Shown one piece after another: positions 2,641 through 49,540 of a DNA stretch of 49,540 bases (position 1 is the stretch's first letter; every line of letters starts with the position of its first letter). The notes under the pieces are model-generated. The model saw nothing but the letters and a program-made list of their open reading frames with translations, was not told the DNA's origin and made no database searches. The stretch comes from Knoellia flava TL1 (lineage in GTDB: Bacteria > Actinomycetota > Actinomycetes > Actinomycetales > Dermatophilaceae). The DNA is taken from NCBI RefSeq assembly GCF_000768675.1, contig NZ_AVPI01000029.1:1-49540 (forward strand). The letters run 5' to 3'. Made by a program: the position numbers and the translations under genes.

Positions 2641-3773
2641 ACGACGACACGCCCGTCATCGTCGCCGCGCGTCGCACCCCCATCGGCACGTCCGGTCTCG
2701 CGCTCCGCGCCGTCGACACGACCGGTCTCGCAGCCCCGGTGCTCGAGGCCCTGACGGCAGACACCGACCTCCGGGCGCCGGACCACGTCGTCCTCGGCAA
2801 CTGCATGGGCGCCGGCGGCAACGTCGCCCGTGTCAGTGCCCTCGCCGCCGGCCTCGGCACGGACGTCCCGGCTCTCACCGTCGACCTCCAGTGTGGCAGC
2901 GGGCTCGCCGCGATCACGACAGCCGCGGCGTTCGTGCGCTCCGGCGCCGCTGAGACCGCCTTCGCCGGCGGTGTCGAGAGCGCGAGCACCGCACCGTGGC
3001 GCCTCTGGCCACCGCGCGACGGCGTCGAGCCGCAGCGCTACACGCGAGCACCGTTCTCCCCGGCTGAGATCGGCGACCCGGACATGGGCGCGGCCGCCGA
3101 CGCCGTCGCCGCACGCTGGGGCATCACCCGCGAACGACAGGACGCGTATGCCGTCCGCTCCCACGCGCGCGCCGCCGCCGCTCGCGCACGCGGGGCCTTC
3201 GACGACGAGCTCGTCCGCCTCCCCCGGCTCGACCACGACGAACGGGTCCGCGACAACCTCCGCGCGAGCACCCTCTCCCGCCTCCCAGCCGCCTTCACCG
3301 ACGGCGGCACCGTCACCGTCGGCAACGCCTGCGGCATCAACGACGGCGCGGCCGCTGTCGCGGTGGTGAGCGAGGCGCGGAGGCGGGCGGACGGCATACC
3401 GGGTCTGGCCTTGCTCGACTGGACGACGGTCGGGGTGGACCCCAACCTGCCGGGCGTCGGACCGGTCCCCGCAGTCCAAGCGTTGCTGCGGCGCAACGGG
3501 ATTACCCTCGACGACATAGGCGTCGTCGAGATCAACGAGGCGTTCGCGGCACAGGTCCTCGCGTGCTGCGACGAGCTCGGTCTCGACGAGGAGCGCGTGT
3601 GCGTCGAAGGAGGAGCCCTCGCCCTCGGCCACCCATGGGGCGCGTCCGGCGCCGTGCTGGCCGTGCGCCTCTTCAGCCAGATGGTGCGTCGTGACGGACC
3701 CGAGCTCGGTCTCGCGGCCATCGCCGTCGGCGGCGGGCAGGGCGTCGCCATGCTCGTCCAGCGCGTCGGCTGA
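2637..3773 (+). CDS. thiolase-family protein lacking the second catalytic cysteine
   Basis: A 378-residue thiolase fold protein. The nucleophile cysteine is present (C86 in LQCGSG), as are NEAF (300-303) and the GHPWGASG loop with H332. In normal thiolases a second cysteine precedes the last glycine run (CIGGGQG); here the stretch reads AIAVGGGQG, so that position is Ala363. The enzyme therefore may not run ordinary biosynthetic or degradative thiolysis and could be an altered Claisen or acyl-transfer enzyme. It starts with GTG inside the stop of the acyl-AMP ligase. The two genes form a closed two-gene unit followed by a convergent gene 8 bp away. Confidence 0.85.
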   Translation: MNDDTPVIVAARRTPIGTSGLALRAVDTTGLAAPVLEALTADTDLRAPDHVVLGNCMGAGGNVARVSALAAGLGTDVPALTVDLQCGSGLAAITTAAAFVRSGAAETAFAGGVESASTAPWRLWPPRDGVEPQRYTRAPFSPAEIGDPDMGAAADAVAARWGITRERQDAYAVRSHARAAAARARGAFDDELVRLPRLDHDERVRDNLRASTLSRLPAAFTDGGTVTVGNACGINDGAAAVAVVSEARRRADGIPGLALLDWTTVGVDPNLPGVGPVPAVQALLRRNGITLDDIGVVEINEAFAAQVLACCDELGLDEERVCVEGGALALGHPWGASGAVLAVRLFSQMVRRDGPELGLAAIAVGGGQGVAMLVQRVG

Positions 3774-3781
3774 GACCCGGG

Positions 3782-4102
3782 CTAGCGGACGAGCCAGTAG
3801 CCCTGCCCCGGCTCCGTGACGAGGTGCCGTGGGTGGGAGGGATCGGGCTCGAGCTTGCGCCGCAGCTGGTTGGCATAGACCCGGAGGTCGTTCGACTCCC
3901 GCCCGTAGGCCGGACCCCACACATCGCGCAGGAGGTCGCGGTGGAGGACGAGGTGCCCCGGCCGACGCGCCAGGACCTCGAGCAGGCTCCACTCGGTCGG
4001 CGTGAGCCGCACCTCCTCGCCGGCCACGAGCGCGCGACGCTCGGCGAAGTCGAGGTGGAAGTGCCGGCCGAGCCCGAGGAGAGCCGCCGTCCGGTGCTCC
4101 AC
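3782..4102 (-). CDS. orphan OmpR/KdpE-type winged-helix DNA-binding domain, probably a truncated response regulator
   Basis: 106 residues match the effector domain of KdpE-like response regulators: LTPTEWSLLEVLARRPG, then LLRDVWGPAYG, then LRVYANQLRRKLEPD and the wing ending EPGQGYWLVR. The receiver domain is absent: the same frame meets a TGA about 25 codons upstream, and no other frame upstream reads like a receiver. No KdpD or kdpFABC is nearby. It may be a remnant or a stand-alone DNA-binding protein; the intact wing and recognition helix leave the latter possible. It lies next to another broken gene, which favours decay. Confidence 0.65.
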   Translation of the reverse strand: MEHRTAALLGLGRHFHLDFAERRALVAGEEVRLTPTEWSLLEVLARRPGHLVLHRDLLRDVWGPAYGRESNDLRVYANQLRRKLEPDPSHPRHLVTEPGQGYWLVR

Positions 4103-4266
4103 GTCGGCGGCTGACCGCGCCGTAGGGCCGCGCCGAAAGCGCCGTGCCGGAGCGCTGCGGCGGCCCGTGGCAACTCACGGCAACCGCTGACGTCGAGACG
4201 CTCCGCCTTCCTACCGTCATGGGAAAGGTCCGCCCGACCGGCGGCCGACGATCGTGGTAGACAGCG

Positions 4267-4487
4267 GTGCACGCACTCGACTGGATGGTGGTGGGCCTGT
4301 TCTTCCTCGGCATGGTCGCCATCGGCGTCTGGAGCAAGAGGAAGAGCTCGGACTCGGGCGACTTCTTCGTCGGCCGCGGCAAGGTGCCCTGGTGGCTCTC
4401 GGGCGTCTCGCACCACGTCTGGGGTCACGACGGAGGCGTGGGAGCGCGCCACGGTGTGACCGCCGCCGTGATGGGTACCTTCGGTCC
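4267..4487 (+). pseudogene. N-terminal fragment of a sodium:solute symporter (SSS family)
   Basis: From GTG 4267 the frame reads as a classic SSS N-terminus: a first membrane helix (LDWMVVGLFFLGMVAIGVW), a SKRKSSDSGDFFVGRGKVP loop, then PWWLSGVSHHV. Similarity stops near 4425-4440, where the next helix should follow; instead the frame runs into a short unrelated stretch and overlaps the start of the DUF6328 gene. Only about 55 of roughly 500 expected codons remain, so this is a deletion remnant. Together with the receiver-less regulator beside it, the interval 3782-4487 is an eroded junction. Bases 4103-4266 between the two remnants hold no recognisable gene. Confidence 0.72.
4476..4481 (+). 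promoter_or_regulatory. -10 box TACCTT, leaderless promoter
   Basis: TACCTT is followed by exactly six bases and then the ATG at 4488. No Shine-Dalgarno sequence precedes the ATG. This geometry puts the transcription start on the start codon. Confidence 0.55.
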
Positions 4488-4988
4488 ATGGACCCTACCC
4501 CCCGCGACACCGAGCGCGACGACACCGAGCGCGACGAGACCGCGACGGAACGGTTCGACCGCAACTGGGACGAGCTGCTCCAGGAGCTGAGGGTCACCCA
4601 GACGGGCGTCCAGATCCTCGCCGGCTTCCTCCTCACGATCCCGTTCCAGCAGAGGTTCGCCGACCTCACGGACGGTCAGCGGACGGCATACCTCGTCGCC
4701 CTCGCGACAGCGGTCCTCGCGACGACGCTCCTCGTGGCGCCGGTGAGTGCCCACCGGCTGCTCTTCCGCAAGCGCGCCAAGCAGGAGCTCGTCCGGCTCG
4801 CCGACGCGTCCGCGCAGGCAGGGCTCGTGGCGCTCGCCGCCACGATCGTCACCGTCACGTGGCTCATCCTCGACGTCGTCGTCGGCAAAGGGCCCGCACT
4901 CGTCGCCGCAGGCCTCGCCCTGCTGCTCTTCCTCGTCAACTGGCTGCTCGTGCCGCTCCTCGTCCGCAGCAGGCTCGACAGGACCTAG
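4488..4988 (+). CDS. DUF6328 family membrane protein
   Basis: A 166-residue protein with a charged, acidic N-terminal tail rich in Asp/Glu/Thr/Arg (1-25), then WDELLQELRVTQTGVQIL, typical of DUF6328 (role unknown). About four hydrophobic segments follow (roughly 38-55, 68-88, 108-128 and 133-153). It sits in the cytoplasmic membrane. The start is set by a leaderless promoter rather than a ribosome site. Its stop codon lies inside a palindrome proposed as the DevR-type operator for the following gene, so the DUF6328 gene itself need not be under that operator. Confidence 0.8.
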   Translation: MDPTPRDTERDDTERDETATERFDRNWDELLQELRVTQTGVQILAGFLLTIPFQQRFADLTDGQRTAYLVALATAVLATTLLVAPVSAHRLLFRKRAKQELVRLADASAQAGLVALAATIVTVTWLILDVVVGKGPALVAAGLALLLFLVNWLLVPLLVRSRLDRT

Positions 4989-5481: not shown

Positions 5482-6776
5482 CGCGCTCGACGACCGCGGC
5501 CGTCGCGGCTGCCCTGCGGCTCGCCGCCCGCCGCCACGACCGGCCCCTGCGCATCGTCGCCGGAGGCAACGCCTCCGTGCCGTGGACGCTGCTCCGGATC
5601 CTCGAGGAGAACGTCGACGAGGTCGAGCTCTTCATGCTCAACGCACCCCACGGCATACCCTCCCGCCCCGGCATCACCTACGTCACGCCGTTCGTCGGAC
5701 CCGGCATGCGCGGCGCCGCCGGCCTCTCCTACCTGCCCGCACGGCTCTCGCACGTGCCCACCCTGCTGCGGTGGAGCTTCGTGCCGGACGTCGTCCTCGT
5801 CACCGTCTCGGCGCCACGTGGTGCCGGGTCGCTGTCGCTCGGCGCGGAGGTCAACATCCTCCCGGCCGCCATCGACGTATGCCGTGCCGCCGGCGGTCTC
5901 GTCGTGGCCGAGTCGCGCGACGACGTGCCCTTCACGTTCGGCGACGCCGAGCTCGCCGCCCATGACGTCGACCTCGTGGTCGACGCTCCGGCGGGGTCCG
6001 CCACCATGCATGCGCCTCGTAGGCCCTCGCCCGGGGTCGAGCGGATCGGGGCGCACGTCGCCGCACGGGTGGGGTCCGGCGCGACCCTCCAGCTGGGCAT
6101 CGGCATGATCCCCGACGCCGTCGTACCGCGGCTCACGTCGCTGCGACGGCTCGGCATCTGGAGCGAGATGGTCTCGGACGGCGTCCTCGACCTCGCCGAC
6201 GCCGGGGCCCTCGACCCCGACCGACCGGTGGTGGCGTCCTTCGCCGCCGGCAGCCCGCGGCTCATGGCGTGGCTGCACGAGAACCGGCGGGTGCAGATGC
6301 TGCGCACCGACACCGTCAACGACCCCGGCCGGATCGCGGCGAACCCGGCGATGACGAGCATCAACACCGCGCTCGCCGTCGACCTCTACGACCAGGCGAA
6401 CGCGACCCACGTGGGCTCGCGGCTGCACTCGGGGTTCGGCGGGCAGTGCGACTTCGTCACCGGCGCGATGGACTCGGTCGGTGGACAGTCGCTCATGGCG
6501 CTGCTGTCGTGGCACCCACGCGCGGACGTGTCGTCCATCGTCGGGCTGCTCGAGGGACCGGTGACGTCGTTCCAGCACACCGCGGTGATCACCGAGCAGG
6601 GCACCGCCGAGATCACCGGGTGGGACGCGCCGGCCCAGGCACGCCACCTCATCGACGACGCGGCGCACCCGTCGGTGCGCGGCGAACTGTGGGAGGAGGC
6701 CGAGGCGCTCGGTCTCGGCCGCGACCGGGGCGCCCCTCGGCCGACGGGACGAAGGGCCTTGTCCCGGCAGGCGTGA
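5478..6776 (+). CDS. acetyl-CoA hydrolase / CoA-transferase family protein
   Basis: 432 residues. The carboxyl half has the family I signature: WSEMVSDGVLDL, where the Glu is the expected acyl-carrying residue, and FGGQCDFVTGAMDS. The N-terminal half has the usual first Rossmann-like domain (RIVAGGNASVPWTLL; PDVVLVTVSAPRG). Closest in style to 4-hydroxybutyrate or acetate CoA-transferases; it would move CoA between a short-chain acid and acetyl-CoA. Translationally coupled to the PPOX gene before it, so probably in the same hypoxia-type unit. The last 10 codons are Arg/Pro-rich and overlap a palindrome proposed to serve the next gene. Confidence 0.83.
   Translation: MTRSTTAAVAAALRLAARRHDRPLRIVAGGNASVPWTLLRILEENVDEVELFMLNAPHGIPSRPGITYVTPFVGPGMRGAAGLSYLPARLSHVPTLLRWSFVPDVVLVTVSAPRGAGSLSLGAEVNILPAAIDVCRAAGGLVVAESRDDVPFTFGDAELAAHDVDLVVDAPAGSATMHAPRRPSPGVERIGAHVAARVGSGATLQLGIGMIPDAVVPRLTSLRRLGIWSEMVSDGVLDLADAGALDPDRPVVASFAAGSPRLMAWLHENRRVQMLRTDTVNDPGRIAANPAMTSINTALAVDLYDQANATHVGSRLHSGFGGQCDFVTGAMDSVGGQSLMALLSWHPRADVSSIVGLLEGPVTSFQHTAVITEQGTAEITGWDAPAQARHLIDDAAHPSVRGELWEEAEALGLGRDRGAPRPTGRRALSRQA
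6746..6759. promoter_or_regulatory. candidate DevR-type operator upstream of CBS gene
   Basis: GGGACGAAGGGCCT, continuing to TGTCCC, is an imperfect palindrome 123 bp before the CBS start and inside the end of the CoA-transferase gene. Its core GGGACGAAGGGCC is identical to the one before fhs. Weaker by position than the others. Confidence 0.35.
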
Positions 6777-9607: not shown

Positions 9608-10552
9608 TCAGAGCGCACCGCTCCTGACGACCGCCACGGGCAGGTCGGCCCGTCGCAGGACCCCCCGGCTCACCGATCCGAGCAGCAGCCCGGCGAAGCC
9701 ACCTCCACCCCGCGCACCGACGACGAGGAGACCCGCCTCCTGCGACTCGGCGAGGAGCGCGTCGGTCTCGTGCGCCCGAGGCGTGCGTCGCGTCGTCCGT
9801 ATGCCGGGGTGGGACTGCCGCACGAACCGCTCCGCCTCGTCGACCGCCCACGTCGCGCGCTCGAGCTCCGCCTCGACCCGGTCGGGGCCGTGGCCGAGGC
9901 CGCCCCAGAGCTCGTCGAGCCACGGCACGACGTCACGACCCGACCACGCCGAGACGAGGACGAGGTCGGTGCGGGCGGCTGTTGCTGCCGCCGCCGCGAA
10001 GGCCACGGCACGCATCGAGGGTCGCGAGGCGTCGACCCCCACGACGACGGGACGCCCCTGCCCCAGCCGGCGCTGGCCCTGGACGACGACGACGGGGCAG
10101 CGGGCGTGGGCGCTCAGGGCGAAGGACACCGAGCCCACGCTCGCCGCGGGGTTCTCCAGACGGGTTCGTCGGCCGACGACGACGAGGTCGGCCTCGCCCG
10201 AGAGGGCGACGAGCTCGGCCGAGGGGTGCCCCACCGCACCGATGCTGCGGACGTCGAGTCCCGGGTGGGCCGGACGCACATGCTCGACTCCCTGGCTGGC
10301 GACCCGGTCGACGGCTCGACGCAACGTCGGGACGTCGGGCCCAGAGGCAGACCCCGGTCCTGCCGACAGCACGGGATCGACCGCGCACGCGACCATGAGC
10401 CGGCTCCTGTGCAGCTCGGCCCAGTCCGCCGCCCAGTCCAGCGCGAGACCCGCCTCCGGGGTCGCGTCGTAGCCGACGACGACGGTGCCCGTCGTGGCGC
10501 CGGGCACGTCCCGTGGTGGGAGGACGCCGGGGTCGGTCCTGAGATCAGCCAT
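9608..10552 (-). CDS. tandem-domain universal stress protein
   Basis: 314 residues with two USP domains: TVVVGYDATPEAGLALDWA opening the first, PVVVGVDASRPSMRAVAFA opening the second, and GARGGGGFAGLLLGSVSRG as the second ATP-binding loop. The first domain has a looser loop (GRRTRLENPAASVGSVS), so only the second surely binds ATP. Start ATG 10552 is preceded at six bases by CAGGCT, a plausible leaderless -10, and by a palindrome centred 42.5 bp upstream. It stands between the sensor kinase and the regulator genes, as in DosR-type clusters. Confidence 0.88.
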   Translation of the reverse strand: MADLRTDPGVLPPRDVPGATTGTVVVGYDATPEAGLALDWAADWAELHRSRLMVACAVDPVLSAGPGSASGPDVPTLRRAVDRVASQGVEHVRPAHPGLDVRSIGAVGHPSAELVALSGEADLVVVGRRTRLENPAASVGSVSFALSAHARCPVVVVQGQRRLGQGRPVVVGVDASRPSMRAVAFAAAAATAARTDLVLVSAWSGRDVVPWLDELWGGLGHGPDRVEAELERATWAVDEAERFVRQSHPGIRTTRRTPRAHETDALLAESQEAGLLVVGARGGGGFAGLLLGSVSRGVLRRADLPVAVVRSGAL

Positions 10553-10587: not shown

Positions 10588-12371
<1,784 letters not shown>

Positions 12372-19248: not shown

Positions 19249-19312
19249 CCGACCGACGTCCCTCTCGGGTGACGTCGTCCCGAGTCCCCGTGCGCCGTCA
19301 TGACGTATGCCG

Positions 19313-22046: not shown

Positions 22047-24896
<2,850 letters not shown>

Positions 24897-25319
24897 TCAG
24901 GTGGCCGCGGCGGCGCAGTCGCTGCACGTGCCCCAGTAGACGACCTCGGCCTCGTCGACCACGAAACCATGGCCGCCCGGGGCGGTGAGGCAGGGGACAT
25001 GCCCGACGGCGCACTCGACGTCGACGATCTCGCCGCACGAACGGCATACGGCGTGGTGGTGGTTGTCGCCGACGCGTGCCTCGTAGCGCGCGTTGGAGCC
25101 GGCCGGCTGGATGCGGCGCACGAGCCCGGCGGAGGTGAGCGCACGGAGGACGTCGTAGACCGCCTGGTGCGAGACCGAGCCGTGCTTCTCGCGCACGCGG
25201 CCGATGATCGTGTCGGTGTCGAGGTGCGGCTCGTCGGCCAGCACCTCGAGGACGGCGAGACGAGGCCGGGTCACCCGCAGCGAGGCCTGCTGCAGCTCGA
25301 TCCTCGGGTCCGTCGTCAC
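24897..25319 (-). CDS. furA: Fur-family repressor (FurA/CatR type)
   Basis: 140 residues. Winged helix at the N-terminus (RVTRPRLAVLEVLADEPHL, SHQAVYDVLRALTSAGLVRR), then the metal region: NHHHAVCRSCGEIVDVEC and the last cysteine pair YWGTCSDC. The two CxxC pairs make a structural zinc site. FurA proteins repress furA-katG and release it on oxidation. GTG start at 25319; the first residues VTTDPRIELQQ fit the family. The operator is probably in the 135-bp gap to the divergent flavoprotein gene. Confidence 0.9.
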   Translation of the reverse strand: MTTDPRIELQQASLRVTRPRLAVLEVLADEPHLDTDTIIGRVREKHGSVSHQAVYDVLRALTSAGLVRRIQPAGSNARYEARVGDNHHHAVCRSCGEIVDVECAVGHVPCLTAPGGHGFVVDEAEVVYWGTCSDCAAAAT

Positions 25320-33082: not shown

Positions 33083-33105
33083 ATTAGGGGCGGCTAAACC
33101 CTCCG

Positions 33106-37090: not shown

Positions 37091-37774
37091 GTGCGCCTCC
37101 TCCTCGAGACCGGCTCGGCCGGCGACGTGCCCGCCCCGATCGACGACGGTGCCCTCGCCAGGCTCTATGCGTGGCCCCACGGCGGAGGTGTCAGGGCGAA
37201 CTTCGTCTCGACCCTCGACGGCTCCGGTGTCGGCGGCGACGACCGCAGCGGCTCGATCAACACCGAGCCCGACGGCCGTGTCTTCCACTTCCAGCGCGAC
37301 CTCGCCGACTGCGTCCTCGTCGGCGCGGGCACCGCACGGGCAGAGGGCTACCGGCCCGGCTCGACCCCGATCTTCGTCGTGAGCGGACGCGGCCGACTCC
37401 CGGAGTCGCTCGCGTCCGGCGACGGCGAGGTCGTCCTCGTCACCTGCGCCGCGTCGGGCCGCGAGGCGGCCGACGACGTGTGGGTTCTCGGCGAGGAGAG
37501 CGTCGACCTCCCCGCCGTCGTCGCCCGCCTCCGAGAAGCCGGTATGCCGTGCATCCTCACCGAGGGCGGACCGAGCCTCTTCCACGACCTCCTCGACGCC
37601 GGGCTCGTCGACGAGGTGGCGCTCACGTTCGCGCCACGCATCGTCGGCGGCGACCACACCCGGGTCGTCGCCGGTGCCGGGCTCGGCGGCCCGTCGGGTC
37701 TGGACGCCGAGCTCCGGCACCTGCTCGAGGAGGACGGCACCCTCCTCGGACTCTGGCACCTCCCCCGCACCTAA
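37091..37774 (+). CDS. RibD C-terminal/dihydrofolate reductase-fold protein
   Basis: 227 residues. Pyrimidine-reductase fold: VRANFVSTLDGSGVGGDDRS, then FQRDLADCVLVGAGTARAEGY (shown in part), PIFVVSGRGRL, MPCILTEGGPSLFHDLLDAG and VDEVALTFAPRIVGG. Members without the deaminase half reduce a pyrimidine or pterin-like substrate with NADPH; no riboflavin genes are nearby, so the substrate is unknown. GTG start decided by the leaderless promoter. The TAA stop is the first part of a long inverted repeat. Confidence 0.83.
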   Translation: MRLLLETGSAGDVPAPIDDGALARLYAWPHGGGVRANFVSTLDGSGVGGDDRSGSINTEPDGRVFHFQRDLADCVLVGAGTARAEGYRPGSTPIFVVSGRGRLPESLASGDGEVVLVTCAASGREAADDVWVLGEESVDLPAVVARLREAGMPCILTEGGPSLFHDLLDAGLVDEVALTFAPRIVGGDHTRVVAGAGLGGPSGLDAELRHLLEEDGTLLGLWHLPRT

Positions 37775-37857: not shown

Positions 37858-38853
37858 TCACTCCGAGGCGAGGAGCTCGAGGGCGCGGAGACGGTTGTCG
37901 AGGCCCGGCGCGGCGTTGGTGACCATGAGCTCGTCGGCCTGCGCGTGCTCCGCGAAGCGGGTGAGGTAGTCCCGCACCGCGTCGATGTCGCCGACGGCCG
38001 AGTAGGTCATCATGTGCCGGGCCTGCATCCCCACCGGCGAGCCCATGAGCTCGTCGACGGCCGCGTCGTCGAGCCGGCCGGCATACGCAGGGACGCGCGA
38101 GGCGAGCGAACGCACGCGTGAGCGGAGCACCGAGGCGGCCAGGGCCTCGGCGTGCTCCTGCTCGTCGGCGACGACGACGTTGAGCGCCGCGATGGCGTAG
38201 GGCTCGGCGAGCTGCTCCGATGGCCGGAACTCGCGGCGGTAGACCTCGATCGCCTGCACGAGCGCGTCCGGGGCGAAGTGGCTCGCGAAGGCGTAGGGCA
38301 GGCCGAGGCGCGCCGCCAGCTGGGCACCGAAGAGGGAGCTGCCGAGGATGTAGAGGGGCACCTTGGTCCCCCGGCCCGGAATGGCGTTGATCGTCGGCAC
38401 GAGGCTCTCGTCGGAGAGGTAGCCCTGGAGCTCGAGGACGTCGTCGGGGAAGCGGTCCGACGCCCGCGGGTCCGCGCGCAGGGCGCGCATCGTCACCTGG
38501 TCCGTGCCGGGCGCCCTGCCGAGGCCGAGGTCGATCCGGCCCGGGTGGAGCTCTGCGAGGGTGCCGAACTGCTCGGCGATGACGAGCGGTGAGTGGTTGG
38601 GCAGCATGACGCCGCCCGAACCGACGCGCAGGCGCTCGGTCCGGGCGGCGACGTGCGCGAGCAGGACCGCGGTCGCCGCCGACGCGATCGAGGGCATGTT
38701 GTGGTGCTCGGCGAACCAGAGCCGCTCGAAGCCTCCGAGCGAGTCGGCCTTCTGCGCCAGCACCGTGCTCGCCTCGAGCGCCTCACCGATGGGCTGGTCA
38801 CGCCCGACGGTGGCGAGGTCGAGCAGCGACAGCCGCGGTCCTGCGGGGCTCAC
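37858..38853 (-). CDS. LLM-class flavin-dependent oxidoreductase
   Basis: 331 residues, bacterial luciferase-like TIM barrel. [20 protein letters not shown] start, [59 protein letters not shown] and [20 protein letters not shown]. Likely uses reduced FMN for an oxygenation; substrate unknown. The GTG start overlaps the stop of the upstream symporter gene (GTGA), so it belongs to the operon behind the Cys leader peptide. That makes an organosulfur substrate (a cystine-related or sulfonate compound) an attractive but unproven idea. Confidence 0.87.
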
Positions 38854-40496: not shown

Positions 40497-41663
40497 TCAG
40501 CTCACGAAGTCGCCGACGACGCGCTCCCACCGCTGCGGGTCGGTGTTCCACTCCTTGCAGTGGCGGGCCAGCTGCCACTCCTCGTAGGTCACGAGGTCGG
40601 GACGGTGCTGGGCGAGCGCCCGCGACGGACCGACCGGCACGAACTCGTCCTCGGCCGAGTGCACGACGAGCATCGGGTGGCGCAGCTCGCCGGCCCGGCT
40701 CACCCAGTCGGTGCGTGCGACGTCGACCGACTCGTGCACCCCGACGAACCGCTTGCCCCACCCCCGGCCCATCATCGAGCGCGACAGGAGGCCGACGCCC
40801 CTGGGCAGCCGGTGCAGCCGTGCGTGGTGGTCGAGGACGTCGCCCCAGTCGATGACCGGCCCGTCGAGCACGACCCGCGAGACGACGTCGGCCATCGGCG
40901 AGCGGTCGAGGAACTGGAGCACGATCGCCCCACCCATCGACCAGCCGACGAGGACGACCTCCTCGGCACCGGACCGGACGGCATACTCGACCGCCGCCTC
41001 GAGGTCGCGCCACTCCGAGAGGCCGAGGTTGTAGCGGCCGTCGGGGCCCGCGGGCACGTCCTCGTCGTTGCGGTAGGTCGGGACGAGCGAGGTCAGTCCG
41101 GCGGTGTGCAGCGCGGGCAGCGCCCGCAACGTCTCCTGGCGCAGGGCGCCGCGCCCGTGGACGCACACCGCCCACCTCGTGCCCCGGCCCTCCGGGGACG
41201 GCACGAGCCAGGCGGGCATCCGGCCGAGCTCCCCGGGGAAGTCGACGGACTCGGTGCGCAGGCCGAGCGCCTGCTCGGGCGTGCCCGCCCAGTAGTAGCC
41301 GTCGAAGCGGGCACCGCCCGGTCGCAGCTCGCCGTGGTCGGTGCCGTGGACCTCGCGCTCGACCGTGCCCGCCGCGGCGTCGGTGGCGGTGATGTCACCG
41401 ATGCGCGCGTGACCCTCGCCACCGTCGAGCCACAGCCCGTAGCGCCCCGGGACGACGGTCTCGTCGGTCGCCGAGAGCAGCACGCGGCCGTCGCGGACCT
41501 CCAGGATCTCGGTGTCGTCCGGCCGCTGCCGCTCGGGGGTGAGCACGCGACGGGCGAAGTATGCCGCCGCCGCCAGCGAGCCGGCCGCGCTCGCGAGCGT
41601 CGTCGTCGCCCCCACCGCCGCCGCCGCGACCGCCGCCCGACGCAGGCCGCGCGCCTCAGCCAT
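40497..41663 (-). CDS. alpha/beta hydrolase with N-terminal membrane anchor
   Basis: 388 residues. N-terminal hydrophobic helix (about 10-36, TLASAAGSLAAAAYFARRVL), a 110-residue N-terminal region of beta type, then an alpha/beta hydrolase: VCVHGRGALRQETLRALPAL with the oxyanion HG, nucleophile elbow VLVGWSMGGAIVLQFL, acid HSAEDEFVPV, and a late His (ARHCKEW). Esterase or lipase-like, facing out or in unknown. The start overlaps the ligase stop by eight bases, so both are translated from one message; a functional link to DNA repair is not expected. Confidence 0.85.
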   Translation of the reverse strand: MAEARGLRRAAVAAAAVGATTTLASAAGSLAAAAYFARRVLTPERQRPDDTEILEVRDGRVLLSATDETVVPGRYGLWLDGGEGHARIGDITATDAAAGTVEREVHGTDHGELRPGGARFDGYYWAGTPEQALGLRTESVDFPGELGRMPAWLVPSPEGRGTRWAVCVHGRGALRQETLRALPALHTAGLTSLVPTYRNDEDVPAGPDGRYNLGLSEWRDLEAAVEYAVRSGAEEVVLVGWSMGGAIVLQFLDRSPMADVVSRVVLDGPVIDWGDVLDHHARLHRLPRGVGLLSRSMMGRGWGKRFVGVHESVDVARTDWVSRAGELRHPMLVVHSAEDEFVPVGPSRALAQHRPDLVTYEEWQLARHCKEWNTDPQRWERVVGDFVS

Positions 41664-43797
41664 CGAGCACGTCGGCGAGGTCGTAGGACACCGGCTCCTC
41701 GAGCTGGGCGTAGGTGCAGGACTCCGGCTCGCGGTCCTCGCGCCACCGGACGAACTGCGCCGTGTGACGGAACCGCACCCCCTCCATGTGGTCGTAGCGG
41801 ACCTCGACGACGCGCTCGGGACGCAGCGGCGTGAAGGACAGGTCCTTGCCCGCGGCCCACCGGGACTGAGCCGCGTTCTGCGGCGTCCGGGTGCCCTCCT
41901 CCTGCTTGGCCCACGCCCACGGATGGTCGTCGAAGTCGGTGACGAGTGGCTGGAGCTCCTCGAAGAGCTCCCTGCGCCGCGCCATGGGGAACGCGCCGAT
42001 GACCCCGACGCTCGCGAGCGTGCCCTCGTCGTCGTAGAGCCCGAGGAGCAGCGAGCCGATGAGGTCGTCGCCGCTCTTGTGCGTGCGGTAGCCGGCGACG
42101 ACGCAGTCGGCGGTGCGCTCGTGCTTGAACTTGTGCATCGTGCGCTTGTCGGGCTCGTAGGTCCCGTCGAGCGGCTTGACCATGACCCCGTCGAGACCGG
42201 CCCCCTCGAACTGCTCGAACCACTCGCGCGCCTCGTCGGGGTCGCGGGTGGCCCGGGTGAGGTGGATCGGCGCCTTCACCGACGCGAAGGCCTTCTCGAG
42301 CTCGGACCGACGCACCTCGAACGGCTCCCCCATGAGGTCGCGCTCCCCCAGCGCCAGCAGGTCGAACGCGACGAAGCTCGCAGGGGTCTCGGCGGCGAGC
42401 TTCTTCACGCGCGACGCCGCGGGGTGGATGCGCTGCTGGAGCAGGTCGAAGTCGAGCCGGTCCTCGCCCGGCCGCACGAGGATGATCTCGCCGTCGACGA
42501 CGCACCTGTCGGGGAAGTTGGCGAGCACGGCCTCGACGACGTCAGGGAAGTATCGCGTCATCGGCTTCTCGTTGCGGCTGCCGATCTCGACCCGGTCGCC
42601 GGAGCGGTAGATGATCGACCGGAACCCGTCCCACTTGGGCTCGTAGCTGACGTCGCCCTCCACGAGCTTCTTGCTCGGTTTGGCGAGCATGGGCGAGATC
42701 GGCGGGACGACCGGCATCTCCCACTGCTCGCGCAGGTCGGCGTCGCGCTCGGCCTTGGGCCTCATGTAGTCCTCGTCGGCACGGTCGGCCCGACGCTTGC
42801 TCGGCTGCACCCGCGGTGGCTCGCCTGGCATCTTGGGATAGTCCGGCGGGAAGTTGAGCTCGCCGAGCCCGCGCTCGACGTCGGCGTCCCAGAGCGCGAG
42901 CGCCGGGGCGATGTCGCCGACGGCCTCCCCCATGTCCGCCCACGCGTCACCCCGGTCGGCGAGGATGCCGGGCACGGTGACCACGGTGAAGTCGCCCGGG
43001 CTGACCGAGCCCAGCTCGTCCCACGTCACCGGCATCGACACCGGCGCGCCGGGCAGGGGGCGCGGGCTGTAGGCCGACGCGATGGTGCGGTCGCGGCAGG
43101 CCTGGTTGAAGTCGACGAAGACCCGCTCCCCGCGCTCCTCCTTCCACCAGCTGGTCGTGACGAGGTCGGGCAGGCGGCGCTCGAGCTCTCGGGCGATGCC
43201 GATGACGCCGTGGCGCACGTCGAGGAACTCGTGGGTGGGGCGGATGCGTGCGAAGACGTGCACGCCGCGGTTGCCCGACGTCTTGGCCCAGCCGGTGAGA
43301 CCGAGCTCGGTGAGCACCTCCCGCAGCGCGAACGCCGCCTCGACGGCGTCCTCGAACGAGCGGCCCGGCTGCGGGTCGAGGTCGATGCGGAGCTCGTCGG
43401 GGTTGTCGTTGTCGGCGGTGCGGACGGGCCACGGGTGGAAGGTCACGGTGTTCATCTGCACCGCCCAGGCGGCCGCCGCGACCTCGTCGACGACGAGCTG
43501 GTCGTGGCGCCGCCCTGACGGGTAGCGGCAGGAGACGGTGCGGATCCAGTCGGGCATTCCCTTGGGCGGGTTCTTCTGGTAGAACTCCTCGCCCTCGATC
43601 CCTTCGGGGAAGCGCTGGAGCGTGACCGGACGGTCCCCGATCGCGCGCACGAGCGGCTCCCCGACCGAGACGACGTATGCCGCGAGGTCGCCCTTGGTGA
43701 TCCCCTCACCGGGCCACATGAGCCGGTCCGGGCTGGACAGGCGCACCTCGCGCGTGCCGTCCGGCCCGTCGATCTCCAGCGTCGTCGCACCCGTCAT
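41656..43797 (-). CDS. LigD-type polymerase-DNA ligase fusion without phosphoesterase domain
   Basis: 713 residues. N-terminal archaeo-eukaryotic primase-like POL domain (about 10-290): metal-binding DELRIDLDPQPG, AKTSGNRGVHVFARI, RVFVDFNQ. C-terminal ATP-dependent ligase (about 360-705): nucleophile K388 in YEPKWDGFR, VVDGEIILVR, GLDGVMVKPLDGTYEPDKR. The 3'-phosphoesterase domain of Pol-PE-Lig LigD is missing, and no ku gene is in view. Role: end joining of double-strand breaks. ATG 43797 chosen because TAGGGT lies six bases upstream; GTG 43803 is an alternative. Confidence 0.9.
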   Translation of the reverse strand: MTGATTLEIDGPDGTREVRLSSPDRLMWPGEGITKGDLAAYVVSVGEPLVRAIGDRPVTLQRFPEGIEGEEFYQKNPPKGMPDWIRTVSCRYPSGRRHDQLVVDEVAAAAWAVQMNTVTFHPWPVRTADNDNPDELRIDLDPQPGRSFEDAVEAAFALREVLTELGLTGWAKTSGNRGVHVFARIRPTHEFLDVRHGVIGIARELERRLPDLVTTSWWKEERGERVFVDFNQACRDRTIASAYSPRPLPGAPVSMPVTWDELGSVSPGDFTVVTVPGILADRGDAWADMGEAVGDIAPALALWDADVERGLGELNFPPDYPKMPGEPPRVQPSKRRADRADEDYMRPKAERDADLREQWEMPVVPPISPMLAKPSKKLVEGDVSYEPKWDGFRSIIYRSGDRVEIGSRNEKPMTRYFPDVVEAVLANFPDRCVVDGEIILVRPGEDRLDFDLLQQRIHPAASRVKKLAAETPASFVAFDLLALGERDLMGEPFEVRRSELEKAFASVKAPIHLTRATRDPDEAREWFEQFEGAGLDGVMVKPLDGTYEPDKRTMHKFKHERTADCVVAGYRTHKSGDDLIGSLLLGLYDDEGTLASVGVIGAFPMARRRELFEELQPLVTDFDDHPWAWAKQEEGTRTPQNAAQSRWAAGKDLSFTPLRPERVVEVRYDHMEGVRFRHTAQFVRWREDREPESCTYAQLEEPVSYDLADVLDG

Positions 43798-43933: not shown

Positions 43934-44008
43934 CAAAAGTGTGCAAACGGCATACGGTCTGTGGGTCTCTCCCTGGGACTCCTCCCTGTTCACCCGAAGG
44001 GTCTGTAC

Positions 44009-46426
44009 ATGTCCGCTCTCACCCGTCGAACGTGCGCCGCCGTCGCCGCACCGCTCGTCGCCCTCCCGCTCGTCGGCGCCACCGCGCTGCTCACGGCCGC
44101 CCCGGCCTCCGCCGTCTCCACCACCGTCCTCATCTCCGAGGTCTACGGCGGTGGCGGCAACTCCGGAGCCACCCTGACCCACGACTTCATCGAGCTGTCC
44201 AACAAGACGGCAGGGGCGCTCTCGCTCGAGGGATGGTCGGTCCGCTACTGGTCGAGCACGGGCACGACCTTCTCCTCCACGCCGCTCAAGGGCTCGATCG
44301 CCGCCAACGGCTACTACCTCATCCAGCAGGCCAAGGGCAGCGGCGGCACCACCGCGCTCCCGACCCCGGACGCCACGGGCTCGGTCGCGATGTCCGGCAC
44401 CAGCGCACGTGTCGCCCTGGTCAACGGCGCGGGCGAGGTCGTCGACCTGCTCGGCTGGGGTTCGAACGCGGCCTCCTACGAGCGTGCCCCGGCTCCGGCG
44501 ACGACGAACACGACCTCGGTCGCACGCAAGAGCGCCTTCGTCGACACGGACGACAACTCCGCCGACTTCGCCGTCGGCGCACCGACGCCGCAGACCTCAG
44601 GCTCGGGCGGCGGCACCGACCCCGAGCCCGAGCCCCCGACTGCGGCGACGATCGCCGAGATCCAGGGCACCGGCGCCTCCTCGCCGCTCAACGGCAAGCT
44701 CGTCACCACCAAGGGCGTCGTCACCGCGGTCTACCCGACCGGTGGGTTCAACGGCTTCTACCTCCAGACGCCGGGCACCGGCGGCACGACAGACGCCACC
44801 CCGGGCGCGTCCGACGGCGTCTTCGTCTTCGGCCGCACGAGTGTCGACGTCGGCGACTGCGTCGACGTCGCCGCCACCGTCGAGGAGTACAACGGCCTCA
44901 CCGAGCTCACCAAGGTGACGGCCGTCGCCCCCGCGACCGACTGCGCGCCCGTGACCCCGACGCCGCTCGCAACGCTTCCGGCCACGGACGCCGAGAAGGA
45001 GCAGTACGAGGGCATGCTCGTGCAGCCGCAAGGCACCTACACGATCACGAACAACTACCAGCTCAACCAGTACGGCCAGGTCGGCCTCGCCGTCGGTGAC
45101 GAGCCGCTGCGCACCGCGACCGACGTGGTCCTCCCGGGTGCGGCGGCCACGGCATACGAGGCGGAGAACAGGAAGAAGTACGTCACCCTCGACGACGGCT
45201 CGAGCTGGGACTACATCCGCAACGAGGCAGCTCAGGACTCACCGCTGCCCTACCTCTCGCAGAAGGAGCCGATGCGGACCGCGTCGCAGGTGACCTTCAG
45301 CAAGCCGGTCATCCTCGACTACCGCTTCCAGTGGAACTACCAGCCCACCGGCCAGGTCGTCGGGGCGACCGACGCCGACGACCCGGTGACCACCGAGAAC
45401 GACCGTGAGACCACCGCCCCGGCCGTGGGCGGCAACCTCAAGATCGCCACGTTCAACGTCCTCAACTACTTCACCGACCTCGGCGAGACCGAGGACACCT
45501 TCAAGAACTGCCCGTTCTACGCGGACCGCGACGGCACCCCCGTCACGACGAACTTCTGCGAGGTCCGTGGTGCGTGGACGGCCGCGGCCCTCGCGGACCA
45601 GCAGGCCAAGATCGTCACTGCGATCAACGGTCTCGGCGCCGACGTCGTCTCCCTCGAGGAGATCGAGAACTCCGCGGGCATCTCCTACCTGCCGGGTCAG
45701 TCGCGCGACAAGGCGCTCGCCACGCTCGTGACGGCGCTCAACGAGGCCGGTGGCACGTGGGCCTACGTGGCCTCGCCGCTCGTCACCCCGAGCAACGAGG
45801 ACGTCATCCGCACCGCGTTCATCTACAGGAAGGACCGGATCCAGGCGCTCGACGCGTCGCAGATCCTCCTCGACCCGGCCTTCGCCAACGCCCGCTACCC
45901 GCTGGCGCAGAAGTTCAAGGCGCTCAACGCGGGCAACCCGTTCGTCGTCATCGCCAACCACTTCAAGTCCAAGGGCTCCGGCGTGGATGACGGCACCGGC
46001 CAGGGCAACGCGAACCCGTCGCGCATCGAGCAGGCCAGGGCGCTGCGGACGTGGGCGAACACCCAGTTCGCGGACGAGGCCGTCTTCCTCGTCGGCGACT
46101 TCAACTCCTACTCCAAGGAGGACCCGGTGCGCGAGATCGAGGCGGGAGGCTTCACCAACCTCGCCGAGCGCTTCGACGCCGGGTCGGCGAGCTACCAGTT
46201 CGACGGCCGCCTCGGCTCGCTCGACCACGGCTTCGCCAACGCCAAGGCGCTCAGGATGGTCACCGGCGCCGGCATCTGGGACATCAACAGTGACGAGTCG
46301 GTGGCGATGCAGTACTCGCGTCGCAACTACAACGTCACCGACTTCTACACCACCGGACCGTGGTCGTCCTCCGACCACGACCCGCTGCTGATCGGACTCG
46401 CCGTCAACGGCCGCGGACCCCGCTGA
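44009..46426 (+). CDS. secreted ExeM/NucH-like endonuclease with lamin-tail domain
   Basis: 805 residues. Signal peptide about 1-36 (ends PASAVS). Lamin-tail domain about 36-165 (LISEVYGGGGNSGATLTHDF, FIELSNKTAG), an OB-fold region about 205-310 (ATIAEIQGTGASSPLNGKLV), and a C-terminal endonuclease/exonuclease/phosphatase domain about 480-800: IATFNVLNYF, VVSLEEIEN, FVVIANHFKSKG, FLVGDFNSY, SSDHDPLLI. Degrades extracellular DNA, likely for phosphate and nitrogen or biofilm turnover. No sortase signal or C-terminal anchor. ATG 44009 has GAAGGG upstream; the frame is open to 43913 but without ribosome site. Confidence 0.92.
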   Translation: MSALTRRTCAAVAAPLVALPLVGATALLTAAPASAVSTTVLISEVYGGGGNSGATLTHDFIELSNKTAGALSLEGWSVRYWSSTGTTFSSTPLKGSIAANGYYLIQQAKGSGGTTALPTPDATGSVAMSGTSARVALVNGAGEVVDLLGWGSNAASYERAPAPATTNTTSVARKSAFVDTDDNSADFAVGAPTPQTSGSGGGTDPEPEPPTAATIAEIQGTGASSPLNGKLVTTKGVVTAVYPTGGFNGFYLQTPGTGGTTDATPGASDGVFVFGRTSVDVGDCVDVAATVEEYNGLTELTKVTAVAPATDCAPVTPTPLATLPATDAEKEQYEGMLVQPQGTYTITNNYQLNQYGQVGLAVGDEPLRTATDVVLPGAAATAYEAENRKKYVTLDDGSSWDYIRNEAAQDSPLPYLSQKEPMRTASQVTFSKPVILDYRFQWNYQPTGQVVGATDADDPVTTENDRETTAPAVGGNLKIATFNVLNYFTDLGETEDTFKNCPFYADRDGTPVTTNFCEVRGAWTAAALADQQAKIVTAINGLGADVVSLEEIENSAGISYLPGQSRDKALATLVTALNEAGGTWAYVASPLVTPSNEDVIRTAFIYRKDRIQALDASQILLDPAFANARYPLAQKFKALNAGNPFVVIANHFKSKGSGVDDGTGQGNANPSRIEQARALRTWANTQFADEAVFLVGDFNSYSKEDPVREIEAGGFTNLAERFDAGSASYQFDGRLGSLDHGFANAKALRMVTGAGIWDINSDESVAMQYSRRNYNVTDFYTTGPWSSSDHDPLLIGLAVNGRGPR

Positions 46427-46544: not shown

Positions 46545-46982
46545 ATGGAGCCTTCGAACCGCACGTATGCCGTCACCAAGACCGATGAGGAGTGGCGCTC
46601 CGAGCTGAGCCCCGAGGAGTACGCCGTGCTGCGCCAGGCGGGCACCGAGCGTCCCTACACGGGTGAGTACACCGACGCCAAGACCGAGGGCGTCTACTCG
46701 TGCCGCGCTTGTGGTGCCGAGCTCTTCACCTCGGACACCAAGTTCGACAGCCACTGCGGCTGGCCGTCCTTCTACTCCCCTCTCGCCGGCGACTCGGTCG
46801 AGTACCTCGAGGACGCGTCGCTGCCCGGCCGCCCGCGCACCGAGGTCCGCTGCGCGTCCTGCGGCAGCCACCTCGGCCACGTCTTCGAGGGCGAGGGCTA
46901 CGACACCCCAACCGACCAGCGGTTCTGCATGAACAGCATCGCCCTCACCCTCCGCCCCGCCGGCGAGGCCCCCACCGCCTGA
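46545..46982 (+). CDS. msrB: peptide-methionine (R)-S-oxide reductase
   Basis: 145 residues. Zinc-binding CRACGAELF and CASCGSHLGHVF pairs, FDSHCGWPSFYSPL, and catalytic C128 in QRFCMNSIAL. Repairs methionine-R-sulfoxide with thioredoxin. A possible resolving cysteine lies at HCGW. ATG 46545 is preferred; an in-frame TTG at 46533 sits where a -10 box would be (TTGGCT, six bases to ATG). msrB next to hemQ is a common actinobacterial pairing as I recall; here a 1.2-kb repeat-flanked cassette separates them. Confidence 0.94.
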   Translation: MEPSNRTYAVTKTDEEWRSELSPEEYAVLRQAGTERPYTGEYTDAKTEGVYSCRACGAELFTSDTKFDSHCGWPSFYSPLAGDSVEYLEDASLPGRPRTEVRCASCGSHLGHVFEGEGYDTPTDQRFCMNSIALTLRPAGEAPTA

Positions 46983-47078: not shown

Positions 47079-47082
47079 CGGG

Positions 47083-47994
47083 TCAGGCGCTATCCGCCAA
47101 CAGAGCACGACGGACCTTCGCCGAGGCCCGACCCGGGACGTCGAGGTCGAGCCACGTCGCACGAACGAACAGCCAGCCCTCAGCCCGCATGTCGTCCTCG
47201 CGCCGCTTCTCACCCCAGAGCACGGCCGGGTCTCCCTCGGCGTACTTCATCCTCCCGTCGATCTCGATGAGCAGGTTCGTCCCCTTGACACGAAAATCCG
47301 CGCGTCCGATCACGGAGCCGTCGGCTCGGCGCACGACGAACTGCGACACGACCTGTATGCCGTGTGACGCGAACTCCACACGCGCGCGGCTCTCCGCGAC
47401 GGACTCGGCCTTGGCGTCGACGTGCGTCATCATCGAGCGAGGCCGGTGCGAGCGCGACCACGTGGCGACGGCATCGACGGCGGCATTGAGCTCCTCCTTC
47501 GAGACCAGGCCGCGATGCAGTGCGGCGTCGGCCGAGACGACTCCTTGGACGATGCCGTGGTCCATACACAGCTGCACCAACGCCTCCGCGAGCGGCACAC
47601 TCGGGCCCCAAGGTCCGTCCACCACGGCGGTGCGCAGCGGCCGGACCCGAAAAGGCTTGGGTCCAGCCTGACGGTCCACGGGACGCAGCAGCTCAGGCTG
47701 GTCCAGCGCGAATCCCCACACCGGCAGCCCATGAGCCAGCACGGCCGTCACGCCGGTCAGCACGGCATCCTCATAGAGCAGCTGGGCGCCGGCGGCCATG
47801 TGCCCTTGCCACGCTGCGGCACCCGGTTGGACAAGGGCCGCCACGGCATACAGGCCACGCGCCGGATGGCGCACCGCCCCGGAGCGGACGGCCTGGCGCA
47901 AGGCCTTGCGGCCCACCCCAGCGGCGTTCGCCTGCTGCGTCGTGAACATGCCCCGCTGGGCGGCGGCGAACCGCGCGATCTCCTGAAGACTCAT
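47083..47994 (-). CDS. AbiEi-type antitoxin-domain protein with PD-(D/E)XK-like C-terminus
   Basis: 303 residues. N-terminal helical winged domain of the AbiEi family (IARFAAAQRGMFTTQQANAA; RQAVRSGAVRHPARGLYAV). C-terminal part resembles a DUF559/Vsr-like nuclease: VIGRADFRVKGTNLLIEIDG, then REDDMRAEGWLFVRAT, where the D, E-x-D and later charged residues could form a PD-(D/E)XK site. No AbiEii toxin is adjacent, so a plain toxin-antitoxin pair is unlikely. ATG 47994 chosen by homology of MSLQEIARF; the frame is open further upstream. The gene is bracketed by inverted 84-bp repeats. Confidence 0.78.
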   Translation of the reverse strand: MSLQEIARFAAAQRGMFTTQQANAAGVGRKALRQAVRSGAVRHPARGLYAVAALVQPGAAAWQGHMAAGAQLLYEDAVLTGVTAVLAHGLPVWGFALDQPELLRPVDRQAGPKPFRVRPLRTAVVDGPWGPSVPLAEALVQLCMDHGIVQGVVSADAALHRGLVSKEELNAAVDAVATWSRSHRPRSMMTHVDAKAESVAESRARVEFASHGIQVVSQFVVRRADGSVIGRADFRVKGTNLLIEIDGRMKYAEGDPAVLWGEKRREDDMRAEGWLFVRATWLDLDVPGRASAKVRRALLADSA

Positions 47995-48125: not shown

Positions 48126-48205
48126 ACAAGAGAAACGGTCCCCGAGCAGGAGAACAGTTCCCTTGCTCGGGGACCGTTTTCCGGGGATGGCGGAAAACGG
48201 TCCCC
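48122..48205 (-). repeat. 84-bp palindromic repeat, copy 2 (inverted)
   Basis: Reverse-oriented partner of 46995-47078. Main hairpin 48133-48155/48157-48179 with 23-bp arms (two mismatches), and an overlapping 11-bp hairpin ACCGTTTTCCG/CGGAAAACGGT (48173-48183, 48191-48201), so two alternative folds exclude each other. Ends 10 bp after hemQ. Two stem positions differ from copy 1 in a compensatory way. Confidence 0.85.
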
Positions 48206-48215
48206 GCCAAGGGCG

Positions 48216-48944
48216 TCAGCGCTGGCGGGCGATGAGGTCGGCGACCTCGACGCGGGGGCCGGTGAAGAACGGCACCTCCTCGCGCACGTGCATCCGGGCC
48301 CGCGACGCGCGCAGCTCACGCATGAGGTCGACGATGCGGTGCAGCTCGTCGGCCTCGAAGGCGAGCACCCACTCGTAGTCGCCGAGGGCGAACGACGCGA
48401 TCGTGTTGGCCCGGACGTCGGGGTAGTCGCGCGCCATCTGCCCGTGCTCGCGCAGCATGTCGCGGCGCTCGGCGTCCTCGAGGAGGTACCACTCGTAGGA
48501 GCGCACGAAGGGGTAGACACAGACGTAGTCGCGCGGCTCCTCACCGGCGAGAAAGGCCGGGATGTGGCTCTTGTTGAACTCCGCCGGGCGGTGCAGCGCG
48601 GCGTTCGACCACACCGACGACAGGTGCGCGCCGAACGAGGTCTGCAGCAGACGGTGGTAGGCGTCCTGGAGGTCCTCGATGCGCTCGGCGTGCCACCACA
48701 CCATGAGGTCGGCATCTCCGCGCAGCCCGGCGACGTCGTAGAACCCGCGCACGACCACGTCGCGCGACTCGAGGTCGGCGACGAGCTCCTCGACCTCGGC
48801 CGCCATCGCCGCGCGGTCCCCGTCGCCCAGCCGCTCGGTGACCTCGAAGACCGACCACATCGTGTAGCGGATCGTCTCGTTGATCTCGCGCATGCGCGCG
48901 GGCGTGGGCTTGCTCGGGACCGGTCGGCCGGACGGGGTGCTCAT
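48216..48944 (-). CDS. hemQ: coproheme decarboxylase HemQ (ChdC)
   Basis: 242 residues of the chlorite dismutase-like fold. Opening [39 protein letters not shown], catalytic Tyr in [16 protein letters not shown], haem-ligating His in [15 protein letters not shown], and the closing [14 protein letters not shown]. Converts coproheme to haem b with H2O2, the last step of the coproporphyrin-dependent pathway of actinobacteria. Its start is four bases after the stop of the oxidase gene at the right edge, so they are one operon. Confidence 0.95.
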
Positions 48945-48948
48945 GGTG

Positions 48949-49540
48949 TCATTCTCCCGCGCGTCCCTCGAGCGCCCGGAGGTGGGTCAGGACGACGTCG
49001 GCGGCGAGGTGCGCCGACCCGATCACGGCCGGGATCCCGACACCGTCGTAGGCCGCCCCGGCCACCGCGAGCCCGCGCACCCCCGCCACGTCGGCGCGCA
49101 CCCGCTCGACCCGGTCGACGTGCCCCACGGCGTACTGCGGCAGCCCACCACCCCACCGCTGCACGTGGCTGTCGAGGACCTGCAGCGGCCCGGACCCGAC
49201 CGCCTCCGCGATCTCGAGTGCGGCGAGCGCGACGAGGTCGGCATCGTCCCGCTGGAGCGTCGCGTTCTCCCCCGCCCGCCCCACGGACGCCCGCACGTAT
49301 GCCGTCCCGTCACCCTCGTCGGCGAGCCACCCCCACTTGGCTGAGCTGAAGGTGCTGGCCTTGATGCCCCGGCCGTCGACCGGGGGCACGAGGAAGCCCG
49401 ACCCCTCCCAAGCGGCGACCTGCTCGGCCGGGAGCGCCAGCGTGATGACCCCGACCGAGGCCACCTCGACCCCCGCCAGCTCGTCGGCCGCGACCGGGGC
49501 GTGCGGACGCAGCAGCCGCGCGGCGGCCGGCGGCGGCACG
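48949..49540 (-). CDS. hemG: coproporphyrinogen/protoporphyrinogen oxidase, C-terminal part (5' end outside window)
   Basis: About 197 residues of the C-terminal half are visible; the N-terminal FAD motif lies beyond the right edge. Recognised by [60 protein letters not shown] and [20 protein letters not shown], the usual HemY/CgoX-type end. With HemQ next, it should oxidise coproporphyrinogen III to coproporphyrin III. The ending with the [11 protein letters not shown] loop contacts FAD. Also named hemY or cgoX. Confidence 0.9.

Follow-up and report, generated by a model that had tools for sequence, protein, structure and literature searches.

Uptake sequences, as far as the portion of PMC12616744 consulted here goes, are named as known from two families only, Neisseriaceae and Pasteurellaceae. 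Here we describe a short word, CGGCATAC, in the soil actinobacterium Knoellia flava TL1 (Dermatophilaceae), which was noticed in a stretch of 49,540 nucleotides (hereafter the window) that is the whole of contig C29 (NZ_AVPI01000029.1) of its 3.56-Mb draft genome (94 contigs); the window has about 72% GC. We consider it probable, from the comparisons set out below, that CGGCATAC, which has an A directly in front of it in 59%, serves Knoellia and much of its family as a DNA uptake sequence kept by biased transformation.

The DNA uptake sequences (DUS) of Neisseriaceae are, like the word described here, short, non-palindromic, and very abundant, and they likewise form genus dialects that lie one or two bases apart on a common frame and cluster on the tree (PMC3630211, in part). 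They differ from the present case in that our hosts are Gram-positive, carry tad/Flp genes instead of those of a classical type IV pilus, and yielded no counterpart of ComP; moreover, one of the words found here, CGAAGGGGG, is unrelated to the others in sequence and place. The uptake signal sequences (USS) of Pasteurellaceae occur, as here, at the order of 1,000 per Mb (PMC7811141 and PMC12616744, in part), with 754-1,014 per Mb given for H. influenzae; they are scarce in newly acquired and in coding DNA, evolve by point mutation, and are presumed to accumulate by molecular drive (same sections of the two sources). Here the word is another one and so is the phylum. USS also have AT-rich flanks, and no such flank was found within 16 bases of the CGGCATAC sites. 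The cyanobacterial HIP1 (GCGATCGC) is comparable as a very frequent octamer present in many genomes of one group; it is palindromic, unlike CGGCATAC, which differs from its reverse complement, and the sections of PMC3497702 consulted mention no comparable dialects. A further parallel is the Flp/tad-dependent transformation of Micrococcus luteus, which, like K. flava, has comEA, comEC, and two tad clusters; its transformation requires comEC and both tad loci (one tadB only in part), and tad genes often occur together with comEA/EC in Actinobacteria (PMC4322843, in part).

In the window, GGCATAC occurs 37 times on the two strands (20 forward, 17 reverse), 36 times within CGGCATAC (19/17) and 27 times within ACGGCATAC (15/12), and the counts of the original prediction, which had been made by eye, are exact. 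G precedes all 37 GCATAC, and the near variants are as scarce as had been said, with two GGCATAG, one GGCATAT, and no GGCATAA. An order-2 Markov model predicts 0.82 CGGCATAC for the window. Two hundred synonymous-codon shuffles that kept intergenic DNA unshuffled gave a mean of 5.4 and a maximum of 11, and shuffling both codons and intergenic DNA gave 2.6 (z 17.7).

The excess extends to the whole genome, which holds 1,273 forward and 1,268 reverse copies (2,541 in all; 713 per Mb), 27-fold more than the word read backwards (50 + 44 = 94), a control unmatched for codon use. The 373-kb contig C1 of the K. flava genome carries 276 copies where the order-2 model expects 7.0; with genes called by a simple codon-model caller, 202 of them lie wholly within genes, 70 between genes, and four across a gene border. 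Synonymous-codon shuffling of this contig leaves 88 copies, up to 70 of which are the unshuffled intergenic sites. Two outcomes had been named beforehand as speaking against the motif, similar counts in a codon-shuffled null and absence of the excess outside the window; the shuffled counts are far lower and the excess is genome-wide. The commonest of the 24 one-mismatch words on C1, CGGCATCC, occurs 70 times against 35.8 expected, and only CGGCATAA (2 vs 0.4) exceeds about twice its expectation.

The excess of CGGCATAC is independent of codon use. The remark that the motif is read in all frames stands insofar as all six gene-relative frames are seen on C1, but two of them, (N)CG-GCA-TAC and (N)(N)G-TAT-GCC-G, account for 168 of the 202 coding sites and spell Ala-Tyr or Tyr-Ala, so that protein sequence shapes where CGGCATAC can sit. 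The motif was also said to force rare codons, and on C1 it does enclose 97 of the 189 TAT (51%) and 15 of the 21 ATA (71%) of the called genes.

Sites are conserved far beyond the surrounding sequence. We aligned C1 to 440 kb of a complete congener genome (G003), to which 64% of the contig aligns at 80.3% identity. Gap-free alignment was possible for 193 of the 276 sites, and 153 of these are identical in the congener, against 42.4 expected from neighbouring windows in the same codon phase. Coding (124/156) and intergenic (29/37) sites are both kept, and in the reverse direction 153 of 206 alignable congener sites are identical in K. flava. At greater evolutionary distance, around comEC, where K. 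flava was compared with ten-odd relatives, the numbers are small and variable; for instance, Phycicoccus elongatus (L149) keeps four of five sites and another locus (L154) four of eight, and none is kept in Humibacillus (L161; 0/4) or Terrabacter (L167; 0/2).

The near-balance of orientation seen in the window holds beyond it, with 137 and 139 sites on the two strands of C1 and 115 and 131 over 20 stretches (394 kb) of G003, each of which has 3-21 sites. Relative to genes on C1, 89 sites point the same way and 113 the opposite way. Sites are twice as frequent between genes, where 70 of 272 fall in the intergenic 12.9% of C1 (p 1e-8). Neighbouring sites less than 80 bases apart form 15 pairs on C1; 13 of these are inverted, and four are spaced just 13-18 bases. 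The two longest gaps between sites on C1 are neighbours, separated by a single site, and together run from 30,272 to about 57,740; they correspond to a low-GC island that starts beside a tRNA-Thr gene (L046/L047, 31,000-54,200). In this island (31.0-54.2 kb), one CGGCATAC was found against 18.2 expected (p 2e-7, an optimistic value as the bounds were drawn after the gap was seen; this is the one island examined). The island carries an IS3-type transposase, judged by eye from the protein, and an open frame of 1,475 aa.

We counted words in 78 genomes, namely 48 of the family including K. flava (40 genera) and 30 of other families in the order. At least 900 CGGCATAC, a cut-off of our own, are present in 29 of the 48 family genomes, four of which are incomplete (58-84%); these are all nine Knoellia genomes and 20 further genera with a single genome each, hence 21 of the 40 family genera sampled. 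One of the nine, G002, has CGGCATCC counts identical to those of the K. remsis genome of L143, and the ComEA ends of the two agree. Three of the remaining family genomes are intermediate (196-293) and 16 have 111 or fewer. No CGGCATAC-rich genome was found among the 30 from other families, all of which have 167 or fewer. Some genera are rich in other words. CGGCGTAC is high in G047 (3,903), G030 (2,216), and G031 (1,359), with 900 or fewer in the other 75 genomes; CGGCATCC is high in G033 (3,949) and G024 (3,816), followed by G009 (1,336) and, outside the family, G067 (1,548); and high counts of CGAAGGGGG are confined to G044 (1,939) and G045 (1,666), with 74 or fewer in the other 76. Within the family, every motif-rich genome has a clear excess of one of the four words counted. 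CGGCATAC, CGGCATCC, and CGGCGTAC have CGGC-T-C in common, which CGAAGGGGG lacks.

A ranking of all 8-mers in sampled stretches, with codons and intergenic DNA both shuffled, placed the following words at the top with z values of 12-18: CGGCATAC in the window, CGGCATCC in G033 and G024, and CCCCTTCG in G044 and G045. The signal is weaker in G047, where the related CGTACGAC comes first (9.7) and CGGCGTAC second (8.9), in a locus of G020 (L146; CGGCATTC, 8.5), in G030 (CGGCGTAC, 7.3), and in G027 (CCGCATAC, 6.9). Samples with no clear word (G009, G010, G014, G016-G018, G021, G022, G026, and G031) still have a top 8-mer at 4.6-6.8, so a z near 7 alone proves little. CCGCATAC in G027 (L020, L266; 11 vs 1.1) and CGGCATTC in L146 (13 vs 1.0) are possible further dialects.

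Among 80 named loci around comEC, CGGCATAC marks Knoellia, Phycicoccus, Humibacillus, Terrabacter, Terracoccus, and Intrasporangium oryzae, with lower counts in three of four Ornithinimicrobium loci; the mark is missing at the comEC loci of P. jejuensis (L144 and L145) and I. flavum (L166). CGGCATCC marks many, not all, Microbacteriaceae. Whole-genome counts of CGGCATCC for the genomes of 15 named loci reach 3,797-4,287 in five Microbacterium and one Leifsonia, 2,931 in Pseudolysinimonas, 1,349-1,597 in Homoserinibacter, Leifsonia poae, and M. lacus, and 511-697 in Subtercola, two Propionibacteriaceae, Knoellia, and Phycicoccus elongatus. Its density is about 1,100-1,480 per Mb in five of the six Microbacterium genomes counted (genome sizes rounded), and in 13 Microbacteriaceae-type loci it occurs 310 times against a codon-shuffled mean of 95.5. 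Janibacter loci, pooled with G044 and G045, carry the word CGAAGGGG, and the Propionibacteriaceae words CGGCGTCC/CGGACGCC lie above the codon shuffle in two loci only. Other over-represented words are CTACCCGC (a Propionibacterium sp. metagenome-assembled genome, MAG), CACCCGCA (Subtercola), CGCGTACG (Hamadaea), and CGACGTAC (a Nocardioidaceae MAG), at loci among L195, L188, L212, L218, and L206.

How the dialects relate was examined by aligning sites of the minority dialects to motif-rich relatives, counting each site in each relative as a cell; cells share ancestry, so the site counts weigh more. In the stretches compared, G047 has 52 CGGCGTAC sites; 21 could be aligned, and opposite 10 of these at least one relative has CGGCATAC (39/100 cells). 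G030 has 42 in its stretches, of which 10 align and five face CGGCATAC (36/90 cells). By the overall rate, about 0.06 cells would be expected for this pairing, and the next one-mismatch word facing CGGCGTAC sites, CGGCCTAC, occupies five cells in each genome. Judged by these alignments, the CGGCGTAC and CGGCATCC dialects are in part the same sites as CGGCATAC with one base changed, and the CGAAGGGG/CGAAGGGGG-type dialect seems to have arisen elsewhere, with an independent origin. A ComEC tree was built (a single gene from 38 of the 48 family genomes, with a quick method); its motif labels were assigned by us from the counts, and 11 of the 38 genomes are labelled as having no clear word, including G009 (despite its CGGCATCC count), G026, and G027. 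At least 12 changes of motif state are required on this tree; shuffles gave 16.1, and none of the 200 was as low. CGAAGGGGG forms one side of a supported branch, CGGCGTAC requires at least two changes, and the remainder is without resolution.

The K. flava genome encodes the parts of a DNA uptake machine. comEA (SLBB and HHH domains) adjoins comEC (Competence and metallo-beta-lactamase domains), one tad (Flp pilus) cluster lies on C41, and a second, tad-2, on C45 encodes a small Flp-like protein (DUF4244) together with TadE-like and TadF-like proteins. Best matches to ComEA were obtained in 108 of 111 loci (80 named and 31 other) and in none of L173, L175, and L205. The matches to the tad-2 ATPase are only partial in G012, G014, and G037 and reach only 36-38% identity in G038 and G041 (both motif-rich and fragmentary) and in G043 (motif-poor), where they are perhaps paralogues. 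T2SSE, tried in 21 genomes, does not split motif-rich from motif-poor ones. Two of the tad-2 ATPase matches (G045:C59:8587-9615 and G019:C6:143907-144944) contain one in-frame stop codon each.

In phages, expectations were taken from an order-2 model with no codon shuffle, and CGGCATCC or CGGCATAC was tested as the presumed word of the host. On this footing, three Microbacterium phages are near background for CGGCATCC (Min1, 5 vs 5.4; SanaSana, 3 vs 3.6; Lynlen, 6 vs 3.6), and Tetrasphaera phage TJE1 has two CGGCATAC against 0.9 expected. A LexA query for further phages returned no usable phage of an actinobacterial host among the 30 of 289 records listed.

The original prediction had offered four candidates and chosen none. 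An uptake-type sequence fits best, given the balance of orientation, about 700 sites per Mb, the scarcity in the island, the intergenic excess, the dialects, and the point mutation in place; a Chi-like role is disfavoured, and a scar of a modification system would not be expected to conserve sites. Under an uptake role, the competence machinery would have a DNA receptor at the cell surface that prefers word-bearing DNA; this might be one of the minor subunits of the tad/Flp pilus or a protein that partners ComEA. Incoming DNA of the same kind would recombine into the chromosome, word alleles would be favoured by molecular drive through the recombination of word-bearing DNA, and the word would accumulate wherever protein sequence permits. 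Were the preference of the receptor to shift, sites would follow by point mutation in place, which may have produced the dialects CGGCATAC, CGGCATCC, and CGGCGTAC. The transformability of K. flava, the promotion of uptake by the word, and the nature of the receptor are inferences. On balance, we also lean towards a wider reading, in which a sequence-preferring tad/Flp competence machine would underlie a Gram-positive uptake-sequence system with these three dialects and the apparently independent CGAAGGGGG of Janibacter-like genera, spanning Dermatophilaceae and Microbacteriaceae and possibly Propionibacteriaceae.

Several observations weigh against an uptake role. The Microbacterium phage Efeko (L280, 17.5 kb) is enriched in CGGCATCC (13 vs 1.8), which speaks against a simple rule that phages are without the word. 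Site orientation and GC skew over the 20 stretches of G003 show a weak rank correlation (-0.44, p 0.055). The correspondence of sites is weaker for CGGCATCC, of which four of 28 aligned sites in G033 and five of 25 in G024 face CGGCATAC (10/152 and 13/158 cells; about 0.1 expected), and no CGAAGGGG site does so among 15 and 13 aligned sites. None of the machinery genes tried separates motif-rich from motif-poor genomes: ComEC was found in 45 of 48 family genomes, the tad-2 ATPase was matched in all 46 searched, and PilM, of the classical type IV pilus family and considered also as a clue to the receptor, occurs in two of 48. By eye, no dialect-linked feature was seen in the last 110 residues of ComEA, which resemble one another, nor in Flp, TadE, and TadF of 12 tad-2 loci, which are too divergent for such a link. 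In the motif-rich G003, the tad-2 Flp frame runs into unrelated sequence and is seemingly broken (L106, G003:C1:668000-687999), and TadE and TadF were not found in this stretch. Finally, the term "uptake sequence" is absent from the consulted portions of two M. luteus papers (PMC4322843, PMC8467076).

If CGGCATAC were instead a chromosome-organising site, bound at intervals of about 1.4 kb by a nucleoid or condensation protein and maintained by purifying selection, the strong conservation in G003 and the presence of sites in all of its 20 stretches would be expected as well. We regard this as unlikely, as a change of the protein would require a concerted base change at a large set of sites, the dominant words differ among genera of one family, 11 of the 38 tree genomes are labelled as having no clear word, and the island, which an organiser might be expected to cover as well, has hardly any sites. 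Chi sites are over-represented short motifs tied to recombination and vary among taxa, and a Chi-like signal read by a nuclease of the RecBCD/AddAB/AdnAB type would be compatible with a non-palindromic 8-mer that differs between taxa. In E. coli, Chi sites show a strong orientation with replication, whereas orientation here is balanced over the G003 stretches and nearly so relative to genes. The weak correlation with GC skew leaves a little room for such a signal, but we consider this explanation quite improbable. Only a slim chance is left to a transfer or packaging bias other than transformation (a gene-transfer agent, or conjugation of the FtsK/TraB type) that would favour word-bearing DNA and set the same molecular drive in motion. 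Combined with recombination, it could likewise yield accumulation, dialects, and scarcity in islands. In M. luteus, mutation of an FtsK/SpoIIIE-family translocase beside tad-1 lowers transformation (PMC8467076, in part). The sites described here show no strand bias of the FtsK type. Reading by FtsK is strand-biased, and its guide sequences (KOPS type) have a strong bias towards the terminus; the lack of orientation bias thus disfavours an FtsK-type role as it does a Chi-like one. An artefact of mutation, repair, or codon use has next to no chance of being the explanation, for although part of the CGGCATCC excess elsewhere is codon-driven (the shuffled mean of 95.5 above) and Efeko is enriched in CGGCATCC, the excess in the window survives the shuffling of codons and intergenic DNA, the one-mismatch words stay at or below about twice expectation save CGGCATAA, the island has almost no CGGCATAC, and four of five phages carry the tested host word at near-background counts.

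Among the papers listed in searches of the open-access literature, outside which most subscription papers and bioRxiv preprints lie, none reports a word of this kind for these organisms, and the literature matches to the motif strings, among those listed, are all unrelated by title. If an uptake role is correct, these words would be a third case of uptake sequences, Gram-positive and with several dialects, and would provide an independent test of molecular drive alone as the origin of such sequences, and tad/Flp pili would become candidate sequence-reading uptake machines. Including the appropriate word in donor DNA might then ease the transformation of Microbacterium, Knoellia, and their relatives.

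Positions of the motif in the window (position 1 is the first nucleotide of the contig)
Element	Position	Strand	Context
CGGCATAC	3146..3153	-	coding
CGGCATAC	3392..3399	+	coding; gene 2637-3773, a putative thiolase (called a thiolase in the original prediction)
CGGCATAC	4684..4691	+	coding
CGGCATAC	5651..5658	+	coding
CGGCATAC	5877..5884	-	coding
CGGCATAC	9799..9806	-	coding
CGGCATAC	11542..11549	+	coding
CGGCATAC	15172..15179	-	coding
CGGCATAC	15292..15299	+	coding
CGGCATAC	16744..16751	+	coding
CGGCATAC	16810..16817	+	coding
CGGCATAC	18538..18545	-	coding
CGGCATAC	19305..19312	-	intergenic
CGGCATAC	20723..20730	+	coding
CGGCATAC	22381..22388	-	coding
CGGCATAC	25042..25049	+	coding
CGGCATAC	26974..26981	+	coding
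CGGCATAC	29055..29062	-	coding
CGGCATAC	29780..29787	+	coding
CGGCATAC	31056..31063	+	coding
CGGCATAC	32571..32578	+	coding
CGGCATAC	33341..33348	-	coding
CGGCATAC	34127..34134	+	coding
CGGCATAC	34907..34914	-	coding
GGCATAC preceded by G	36285..36291	+	sole site of 37 other than CGGCATAC
CGGCATAC	36996..37003	-	coding
CGGCATAC	37542..37549	-	coding
CGGCATAC	38079..38086	+	coding
CGGCATAC	40979..40986	+	coding
CGGCATAC	41559..41566	-	coding
CGGCATAC	43675..43682	-	coding
CGGCATAC	43948..43955	+	intergenic
CGGCATAC	45150..45157	+	coding
CGGCATAC	46565..46572	-	coding
CGGCATAC	47355..47362	-	coding
CGGCATAC	47844..47851	+	intergenic
CGGCATAC	49297..49304	-	coding

The window also contains consecutive tRNA-Val, tRNA-Cys, and tRNA-Gly genes on the minus strand (32920-33178).

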